Notes under the pieces: generated by a model | Databases searched by the model: none | What the model saw: only the letters and a program-made list of their open reading frames with translations | What the model was told of the DNA's origin: nothing | Shown here: positions 6,412 through 36,903 of the stretch, piece after piece | Position numbering within the stretch: position 1 is the first letter of the stretch | How the letters are laid out: each line of letters begins with the position of its first letter | Position numbers and translations under genes: made by a program | Assembly (NCBI GenBank): GCA_030752795.1 | Contig: JASMDM010000067.1 | Location: 124,001-188,000 of the forward strand | Reading direction: 5' to 3' | DNA: 64,000 nucleotides | DNA from: SAR202 cluster bacterium | GTDB lineage: Bacteria; Chloroflexota; Dehalococcoidia; Lucifugimonadales; UBA1123

Positions 6412-7929
6412 CAATGCTTCAACCCATTTGGCGCCCGTCGTAGCCGTGTCTATGATGAGATCTCCGTGCGTCAGGCTGGGGTAGCCTTGCAGAGGGACCA
6501 TCCACCCGCCCGCCTCGGTAGTCAACGCCTTGGCGCTCACGTTGGTCAAGGCCAAATCGCCGGGCTGCGACTTGAGGAGGTCGTAAACCGTTATATCGTC
6601 GATCAGGCCGAAGTTGTCGTCCGCGATCCTGTCGGTGTCGGGAGACAGATTGTAGCCGATGCCCCCTTCGCCCCAGGTCACGAACTGCTTCGAGTGAGGG
6701 TTGCGCTCCCATTCCCTGAGGTTGTCGATGGCACCAGAGGGACGAAGGTCGACGTTGACTTTTGGAGTACCGGGAAACCCGAAGAGATCGGTGATCACCG
6801 GCCGCACGAACTCTATCGCGCCGATAATCGACTCTCTCTGCGTCTCCGCGAAGCCAGTGTCAGCCCCATACGCCAGGAGATCGTAGCCCACCATTTCGGC
6901 AGCGTCGGCGAAAATGTTGATGAACTCATCGATTTGTTCATTCGTCAGATTGGTGCTAATGCTCAGCCGGATCAGGTTCCGCAAGAACAGCTCGAACGGT
7001 GGTTCGGCCTTGTTGGATATAACTGAGGCCAACCAGGGGTCGAAGAAAATGTCGGTGTCAAAGTCGTCGTAACAGATGTTCGCAACTTCGGCGATGGTGC
7101 TGCCGCCAAACGGCGGGGCGGTAAACATCACGTTGGCGACACGTTCCTGTTCCACCCTTGATTCGCTCCGGTTGAGCAACGCCAGCAGCGCTCGGACGTC
7201 GATTCCACCCGCGCTGTGCGTGATTATGTTGAGCTGGTGATCGTCTTCGAATGCAACGCCGCCAAACTCGCTTCTGAGCAGGTCTTTCAGGTCTTCGGTG
7301 TGATACTCGGCTCGACCGTTCCGGTTGTAATTGCTCTTCACTCTCCGCTCGGAAAGCTCTTCGAGGAACTCGACGGCTGGAATGAAGCAATCTTCAGGCA
7401 ACGGCAAAAGAACCCGGCACACCGGCAGCCACTGGGTCAATTTGTAGTAGTTATTTCGGAAGAAATCGATCGGATCGGGCGAATTGTATGGGTTGAAGTC
7501 CTGGCCTGGAACAACTTCCTCCGAAGAGGGCAACGCCATCCGTTCCGGCGTCTGGAGCAGTGCTCGGCCTTGGGCAGCGGTGGCGAAAGGGTTTCCGTTC
7601 GGCGCAGTGAACTGGACCGCGTAGTTTCCCACCGGCGTCTCTTGCGGGTTGCCGGCGCCCTCGGTTATGTCACGAAGGGCGTTCCAATACGGCCCGGTCG
7701 TTTTCCCCTATGACGCGCCGTCGTCATTGAATCCGTGCACGTAGATCAGCGGGAGCTGTTCGCGTCCATCAGGAGGGACCAGCGTCTCCTCAAGGGCGGA
7801 TACCGGCGTTGGGTTGCTTGGAATCAGCGCCAGCGCCACTAACACCAACAGGATTGCCGAGGCAACAACATATCGTCGAGTCCGCACTTGCGTGACACCT
7901 CTCCGCCGATTCTCATCCATTAGGCCCAA
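6412..7929 (-). pseudogene. secreted alpha/beta-hydrolase (lipase/PGAP1-like) with in-frame amber stop, fused at its 3' end to the XDH remnant
   Basis: Signal anchor plus LPLIYVHGFNDDGAS (7708-7929), TAG at 7708-7710, then the same frame continues GKTTGPYWNALRDITEGAGNPQETPVGNYAVQF...NIITHSAGGIDVRALL (nucleophile-elbow-like HSAGG). Confidence 0.8.
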
Positions 7930-24903: not shown

Positions 24904-25201
24904 GGGTGCTCTCCTATTCGGGCATACGCAACGATGATCGCCGCAACGCCAATCTGAATCTGGGGCAAGTTTACGGCTGCGCACAATCCGTGTCAAGAAT
25001 CGCGGCACGGGCGATCATTAACTGACGGCTCGTGCTGGCAATGGGCGCACGGCTGGCCGATAATGTCACACCGTAGCTTCGGTGTCGCGTGTCCGTCTCA
25101 TGTGCGGTAGCAATTCGTGAATAACCGATGTCTGCTCCGGACGTTGCAATAGTCGAAGCCTTAACAACATGGAAGCCGGAGGCGCAAGCCGTGAAACTCA
25201 C

Positions 25202-26353
25202 ATGAACTCGCCCTCGCTCAATTTCAGTCGTGGCCGGTGCATCGGATTCTTGCTGGTCGTGGTGGTCGCCTTCGTAGCAGCCTGCGGAACAGTCGCCATC
25301 GAGGATCGCCAGACGACCGGCGCAGATGCGATTCAGCGCCCGACACCGACGCCTCAATCCACTGCGATTCCGGCCGCGGCTCCTGTGCCATCTGAACTTT
25401 CTTCGGCACGGCGATCATCGGCAGCGCCAGTCTCGCAGCAGCAGCGCAGATCTCCGTTCGTGCCTCTGGACGATCCCGAATTTCTGAGCGTTCAAGAAGC
25501 AACCTACTTAGGCGACGAGAACTTGGTGCTGGGATTGGACGTGGACGGCAAAGCCCGCGCCTACCCCGTTGGCATGGTCTACTACCACCACGTGGTCAAC
25601 GACACGGTTGCGGGTCGACCGATACTCATCACGTATTGAATCAAGTGCAGCTCGGGGGTCGGGTACGACCCCGTGGTCCGAGGCAGCGCCCTCACCTTCG
25701 ATGTTTTCGGATTGAACCAGGCGGTCCTGTCCATGCGAGACCACGAGACCGGCTCTGTCTGGACTCAGCTCGACGGCAAAGCGACCGACGGGGCTTTGAA
25801 GGGCGAGAGGCTCGAGATGATTCCAATGCCTCAAATGACATGGGGCGAATGGAAGAGTGCACACCCTGACACGCTTGTGCTCTCGCCCAACACGCCATTT
25901 AGCGACCGCTACGGAGCCGTCCGAATCGGCACGTTCAATCCCGGCGAGGCAATCTACGGCGACGACAGGCTCGATGCCAACGCCCTGGTTGTCGGCGTCG
26001 AGGTGGACGGCGAATTCAAAGGCTATCCGATAGCGGAATTCGCTCGGAGCGGAGGCGCGGTCAACGATGTCCTCGCGGGCCAACCGGTTCTCATCATCTA
26101 CGACGAAGCTTCACAAACAGGCATGGCATACTCCAGTTTGGTCGACGGCTCTGCTCTTGAATTCGACGAATCGAATCACGACGGTTTCTCTGTAACCGAC
26201 CGCCAAACCGGCTCCACATGGGACGCTCAAGGCAGAGCAACGGCTGGCGAACTCAACGGACGCACGTTGGAGTTCGTGCCGTCGTTCATCTCCGAGTGGT
26301 ACGGCTGGTCCGCATACCATCCAGACACGACGCTGCACGCCGCGGAACGCTGA
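25202..26353 (+). CDS. DUF3179 lipoprotein (two DUF3179-like repeats), candidate selenoprotein with in-frame UGA at 25637-25639 (codon 146)
   Basis: MNSPSLNFSRGRCIGFLLVVVVAFVAACGT lipobox; DPEFLSVQEATYLGDENLVLGLDVDGKARAYPVGMVYYHHVVNDTVAGRPILITY-[UGA]-IKCSSGVGYDPVVRGSALTFDVFGL; both halves share one frame and homology continues across the UGA. Confidence 0.75.
25651..25682 (+). promoter_or_regulatory. candidate bacterial SECIS hairpin
   Basis: CTCGG GGGTCG [GGTA] CGACCC cgtggt CCGAG; apical loop starts 22 nt after the UGA, loop begins with G. Confidence 0.45.
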
Positions 26354-35568: not shown

Positions 35569-36903
35569 TCAAGGCTTCGTGACCAGCCTGGATATCGTCT
35601 TGTCGAAAGAGAGAATGTAGAGCTCTCCGGCTGGATCCTCCGCGAACGACGAAATTTCGAGGACCGTGTCGGCGAGTTCGGTCTGGGTCACAACCGAATC
35701 TTCGCCACTCGTAAGCACCCAAATCTTCCCGGAACAAAAGTCGCCGTAGACGTACGCTCCGTAAAGCTCGGGAAGCCGTGTCCCTCGATAGACGTATCCG
35801 CCTGTGATCGAACACCCGTCGTCGCGGCCGTACGCGCCGACTGGGAGTTCTAGGCCGGCCGTGTCGCACGGTCCTTGGGGTCGCGGATAGCAATCGCTCT
35901 CCTCCATCGCGTTCAAGCCGTAGTTTAGACCCGGCTTGATCACGTCGATCTCCTCGAGCCGGTTCTGACCGACATCGCCCGCCCAAAGGTCGCCGGTCAG
36001 CCGATCGAACGTGAATCGCCATGGGTTCCGCAGCCCGTACGCTCAAATCTCGCCTCGGGCGTTGCTCAATTCGATGAATGGGTTGTCGCCCGGTATCGTG
36101 TACGAACCGGTCGAGTCCAGGCTTGCGACATCGAAACGAAGGATCGTGCCCAGATGCGTTGCCGGATCCTGGCCGTTCCCGCGGGGGTCGCCTCGGCTTC
36201 CGGCGTCGCCCAATCCCAGGTACAGGTACCCGTCGGGTCCGAAGAGCACCTGCCCGCCGTTGTGGTTCTGGTATGGCTGATCGACCTCCAAAACCACGAG
36301 CTCGCTGTCGGGGTCCGCACTGAGGCCGTCTGGTTCAACAGTGAACCGAGACAGCACGCCCCGATTGGGGTCGGACGCGTTGTAGTACACGAAAAGATAT
36401 CCGGTTCGCTGAAAGTCCGGACCCAGGGCCAGTCCCAACAACCCCTCCTCGTTGCCTCGGTCCTTAACGCGATCCCTGATATCGAGTAACTCCGTGGCTT
36501 CGCCGTTTTCATCGCTGGCGTCGAAGCTCATGATTTGGCCAGGTTGGAGTACAAGGAACGCCGTGCCGGACACGTCGTCTGCGAAAGCCAAAGCGATCAT
36601 GCGGCTGTAAGAGATCTTGGGGTAAGCATGCTCGACTCGAAACGCGCCTGCCAGCACACGTTGAACGGGGATCGGAACGGGAGTTGGCGTCGCCGTTGGC
36701 GTAAGCACAGTCACCGTCAAAGCGGCGGGTGTCGGTCGAACCTCAGGAGTAATCGGAGTGGCGCGGGCCGGGGTTGGCGATGATGGTGGCGCCTGCGTAA
36801 TCGCCGTGGGCGCGGTTGGCGGTGATGCCGGTGTTCGGTCGCCGCCGCCACCGCACGACATCGCAGCCAATGCAGCCACGGCGACGATCAATAGACTTCG
36901 CAT
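35569..36903 (-). pseudogene. PQQ-dependent sugar (sorbosone-like) dehydrogenase lipoprotein with in-frame TGA at a conserved Trp position
   Basis: GLLGLALGPDFQRTGYLFVYYNASDPNRGVLSRF...LSNARGEI-[TGA]-AYGLRNPWRFTFDRLTGDLWAGDVGQNRLEEIDVIKPGLNYGLNAMEESDCY; both halves in one frame. Confidence 0.88.

Follow-up and report, generated by a model that had tools for sequence, protein, structure and literature searches.

A UGA codon probably decoded as selenocysteine in a DUF3179 gene of a SAR202 cluster bacterium

In the genome of a SAR202 cluster bacterium (Chloroflexota; Dehalococcoidia), two open reading frames share one common frame, at 25169-25639 and 25673-26353 of the stretch of DNA analysed here (64,000 nucleotides, hereafter the window, positions 124001-188000 of contig C67 in a 3.50 Mb assembly of 116 contigs), and the first of them closes on an in-frame TGA at 25637-25639. 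This locus raises the question of whether the TGA is a lesion in a decaying gene or a codon for selenocysteine (Sec). We find that it is very probably decoded as Sec, judging from sequence comparisons, and the pillars of this reading, all computed here, are the UGA column in homologues, the Sec machinery of the host, a conserved hairpin and purifying selection.

When the TGA is read through, a frame that starts at the ATG at 25202 becomes a DUF3179 coding sequence of 383 residues, including Sec146, plus stop (25202-26353, forward strand, as for all features of this gene; residue numbers start from this ATG). The translation around the codon reads ...VNDTVAGRPILITY-TGA-IKCSSGVGYDP..., and the genuine end of the gene is a second TGA at 26351-26353. 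Residues 89-376 of the read-through product (25466-26329) align with PF11376 (profile positions 7-292 of 292, E 7.5e-66, 223 bits against a cut-off of 27), and an NCBIfam search with it returned no model above cut-off. A lipobox-like VAAC motif at residues 25-28 (25274-25285), with a putative lipidated Cys28, follows a hydrophobic stretch, suggesting that the protein may be an exported lipoprotein. Cys149 (25646-25648), the likely resolving residue of the UxxC motif that Sec146 opens, is invariant in the family alignment (58/58), and His129 (25586-25588) is found in 57 of the same 58 sequences. Of the relatives with names, Dehalococcoidia bacterium UBA2160 (79% identity) and a SAR202 cluster bacterium stand nearest.

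We examined the Sec column in DUF3179 loci from a class-wide search of 198 genomes, together with 80 loci from named genomes. These yielded an alignment of 147 unique proteins, one of them a fragment gapped at the Sec column, and the remaining 146 homologues comprised 93 with TGA and 53 with Cys, so that Sec forms outnumber Cys forms in what is a non-random sample, chosen by likeness to the window sequence and not a census. Every UGA homologue preserves a UxxC motif (UIKC, UPLC, UTLC, UILC, UPIC and others). The UGA copies are distributed over Chloroflexota, Acidobacteriota and Planctomycetota, plus the bins HR08 and HR10; within the class, the family search identified DUF3179 in 77 of the 198 genomes, among the matches listed, many copies having a single TGA. 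In a FastTree phylogeny, eight switches between U and C are needed, at least seven of them forced by well-supported branches, and the clade that holds the window gene consists of 29 Chloroflexota rows, all U. The TGA is also kept in the same-genus and other related genomes examined, which were assembled separately.

The window genome itself holds three DUF3179 copies with UGA at the Sec column (on contigs C67, C21 and C24), and a fourth with Cys. The C24 paralogue (L005, from 49399) keeps both the UGA and the hairpin described below and has one extra base just after, a frameshift that accounts for its split match and its second TGA. Another homologue (L092), probably from a SAR202 strain in culture whose genome is closed, carries a further TGA eight residues upstream of the Sec position, where Gly is usual. 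The closed genome of the cultured SAR202 strain Ca. Lucifugimonas marina JH1073 appears to hold at least four UGA copies of DUF3179 (L069, L079, L092 and L093).

All the components of a bacterial Sec system were identified in the window genome: a tRNA-Sec with anticodon tca on contig C44 (71.9 bits), selA (545 bits), selB (326 bits) and selD (366 bits), the last with a Sec of its own at the active site (CAGUAAK). As selB lies on C67, the window's own contig, contamination of the bin cannot explain away the machinery. Across the class, and among the matches listed, tRNA-Sec or selA was found in 20 of the 21 genomes with UGA copies, the exception being a 69% complete genome (G010) with neither gene, and 12 of the 13 genomes without tRNA-Sec and selA had no UGA copy. 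The difference between TGA and non-TGA genomes in this respect (20/21 vs 44/56, among the matches listed) is not significant (p 0.10), and tRNA-Sec alone does not split the two sets (18/21 vs 43/56, p 0.53, again among the matches listed), because many Cys-only genomes retain the machinery.

Downstream of the UGA lies a hairpin of the bacterial SECIS type (25655-25672), with GGGGUC (25655-25660) pairing to GACCCC (25667-25672) around the loop GGGUAC; it starts 18 nt past the first base of the UGA and spans +18 to +35. Folded alone, this hairpin is unremarkable (z -1.03, 30 of 200 shuffles as good), and an Rfam search at this position gave no match of weight. Across relatives it is both conserved and covarying. 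In the window-type group (A2, 30 sequences), 100% of cells are paired and three of the six pairs show double changes (10 double-change cells); in a second paralogue group with a shifted register (A3), 98.9% of cells are paired and covariation extends to six of the seven pairs (18 double-change cells); none of 500 shuffles scored as high for it, and no slide came near. Assignment to these groups was by best-fitting register, which inflates the percentages paired, not the compensatory changes. Compared with synonymous recodings, hairpin energies gave a mean z of -1.30 in U genes and -0.12 in C genes (p 1.6e-9, kinship ignored), the relatedness of the sequences meaning that the hairpin p-values overstate independence. 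In Acidobacteriota (L136-L183), where the hairpin lies nearer the UGA, the codons ACC-GGT-CTG-GTG are identical in all 36 U genes, while the Cys homologues of the same phylum, which mostly encode the same residues, use GGT for the same Gly in 0 of 11 cases (Fisher 6e-11, kinship ignored); the frozen codons point to selection that would act on the RNA and not on the protein. The DUF3179 hairpins resemble the SelB-dependent bacterial SECIS in lying in frame, approximately 18-36 nt from the UGA, with a covarying stem whose apical loop contains G. They differ from it in matching no Rfam family and in register, of which the Chloroflexota paralogues use three and the Acidobacteriota one more, closer to the UGA.

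Could the TGA instead be a nonsense mutation in a pseudogene, or an error in the consensus of a metagenome assembly? The window does contain other apparent nonsense codons. A TGA at 36043-36045 (reverse strand) occupies a Trp site in a gene of the GSDH family (PF07995), and a TAG at 7708-7710 (reverse strand) lies in frame at a Trp-like site of a lipase/esterase-like ORF (IYVHGFNDDGAS-stop-GKTTGPYW); the one-base frameshift of the C24 paralogue is likewise what such decay or error might leave. Against this, the identical TGA recurs in 93 homologues spread over three phyla or more, separately assembled relatives included, whereas the Trp-site TGA of the GSDH gene is absent from 18 of 18 relatives with that gene, the same genus among them, and itself probably reflects a nonsense mutation private to this genome or an error of assembly. 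Purifying selection moreover persists past the DUF3179 TGA: in comparisons with four relatives, dN/dS was 0.15-0.22 downstream and 0.14-0.43 upstream of the codon, with synonymous sites almost saturated between the more distant relatives. We therefore regard a pseudogene or sequencing error as very improbable. An even slighter chance attaches to UGA being read as Trp or Cys under a changed genetic code or by a suppressor tRNA. The UGA is read through in frame, and the window has one more UGA at a Trp site, as such a code would have it; yet TGA also serves as an ordinary stop, terminating 10 of the window's 40 longest open frames as well as the DUF3179 gene itself, and thus the code is not reassigned. 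The UGA also alternates with Cys and not with Trp, the genome has the complete Sec machinery, and a covarying hairpin follows the codon.

These results agree with an earlier note on this DNA, which had placed an in-frame TGA at residue 146, where a CxxC motif begins, and had preferred Sec insertion to pseudogenisation. The placement is borne out by the read-through translation and the homologue column, and the preference by the machinery, the U/C column, the covarying hairpin, the selection and the TGA of relatives. Of the checks that the note had proposed, those for selA, selB, selC (tRNA-Sec) and selD, for U/C alternation and for a SECIS element all came out in favour of Sec, while close relatives had kept the TGA and the relaxed dN/dS expected of a pseudogene was replaced by its opposite. 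The note was also correct to contrast this Cys-site UGA with the two Trp-site stops elsewhere in the window, the GSDH stop being private among the relatives searched.

As to mechanism, SelB would bring Sec-tRNA to the ribosome at the in-frame hairpin (25655-25672) by the standard bacterial route, with Sec146 and Cys149 then forming a UxxC redox pair. This pair would lie in the first half of a tandem duplication. Repeat 1 (25496-25873) and repeat 2 (25946-26329) align with a score of 217 (shuffled mean 28.6, sd 4.8), their profiles match at E 3.5e-37 in hhalign, and both are predicted to adopt the same strand-rich fold, which may be Rieske-like. The set of H129, N133-D134, Sec146 and Cys149 occurs only in repeat 1, which also has W187, while repeat 2 has DEAS instead of UxxC. 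AlphaFold2 modelled the domain with a mean pLDDT of 93.8, and repeat 1 with 97.1; a sequence search of the PDB identified no solved relative. In Foldseek, Rieske ferredoxins and NirD were consistently on top (3gce, probability 1.00, target TM 0.57; 5cxm, target TM 0.61), with E-values of 0.008-0.5.

The likeness of the fold raises a different reading, in which Sec is inserted and the selenol and thiol serve as metal ligands in a Rieske-like domain, with no thiol redox enzyme. Both fold searches give Rieske and NirD domains, and the UxxC is accompanied by the nearly invariant H129, N133, D134 and W187. We consider this reading unlikely, although less so than decay or reassignment: no Foldseek E-value is better than 0.008, the Rieske ligand pairs C-x-H...C-x-x-H were not found in the invariant columns, and profile comparison with Rieske reached a probability of at most 16%, in a register that does not put UxxC on the ligand boxes. 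A placement of UxxC on Rieske ligand box 2, which its CPxH-like spacing might suggest, found no support, D-R-Q-T-G-S-x-W being aligned there at low probability. The DUF3179 halves weakly resemble Rieske/NirD-like domains (PF00355 and relatives) in predicted fold (Foldseek probability up to 1.00, target TM 0.5-0.6), but differ in having no cluster ligand pairs and, in our reading, a UxxC redox pair instead, and the likeness comes with weak E-values and no support from sequence profiles. We favour a redox role for the DUF3179 protein, which we consider likely from its motif and predicted structure, the redox centre probably being the UxxC pair. The protein is most likely a thiol/selenol redox enzyme outside the cytoplasmic membrane, which would cycle between a selenenylsulfide and the selenol/thiol form, and our proposal is a UxxC oxidoreductase that is exported and built on a Rieske-like scaffold.

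The earlier note had further taken this to be a new selenoprotein family, and this part of its claim does not stand: DUF3179 (PF11376, UxxC/T) is already tabulated among selenoproteins in two reviews (PMC9312934, 2022; PMC13188914, 2026), which both cite Zhang & Gladyshev 2007 (NAR 35:4952) for it. The window protein fits the published pattern, with the Sec codon first and Cys at +3 (UIKC), and shares with the published family, as the reviews list it, the Pfam family, a Sec in UxxC and a basis in bioinformatic prediction. It differs in taxonomic setting. In the same listing, the first attribution of the published family is to the delta-1 symbiont of Olavius algarvensis, whereas the present set comprises Dehalococcoidia/SAR202, whose genomes hold several Sec paralogues each, as well as Acidobacteriota and Planctomycetota. 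Under the terms searched, the two reviews make no mention of Chloroflexi, Acidobacteria or Planctomycetes, and the SAR202 cultivation paper (PMC10444878) makes none of selenium; we found no description of the multi-copy spread over Chloroflexota, Acidobacteriota and Planctomycetota in the literature searched, and one may exist elsewhere. From comparative sequence evidence, the window gene is thus a well-supported new Dehalococcoidia/SAR202 member of a known selenoprotein family. A broader view is possible but doubtful: that DUF3179 proteins are widespread, multi-copy exported selenoproteins with a duplicated Rieske-like fold, in which UxxC replaces the iron-sulfur cluster, and that several lineages within the SAR202 Chloroflexota and the soil Acidobacteriota may have Sec as a common or ancestral form.

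Automatic annotation likely truncates DUF3179 genes at the UGA, so that the family is easily miscounted. The alternation of Cys and Sec in one column, within similar flanking peptides, offers a clean natural comparison of the constraint that a SECIS imposes on codons. With JH1073 as a cultured host, Sec insertion and the use of selenium in an abundant ocean clade would be directly testable.
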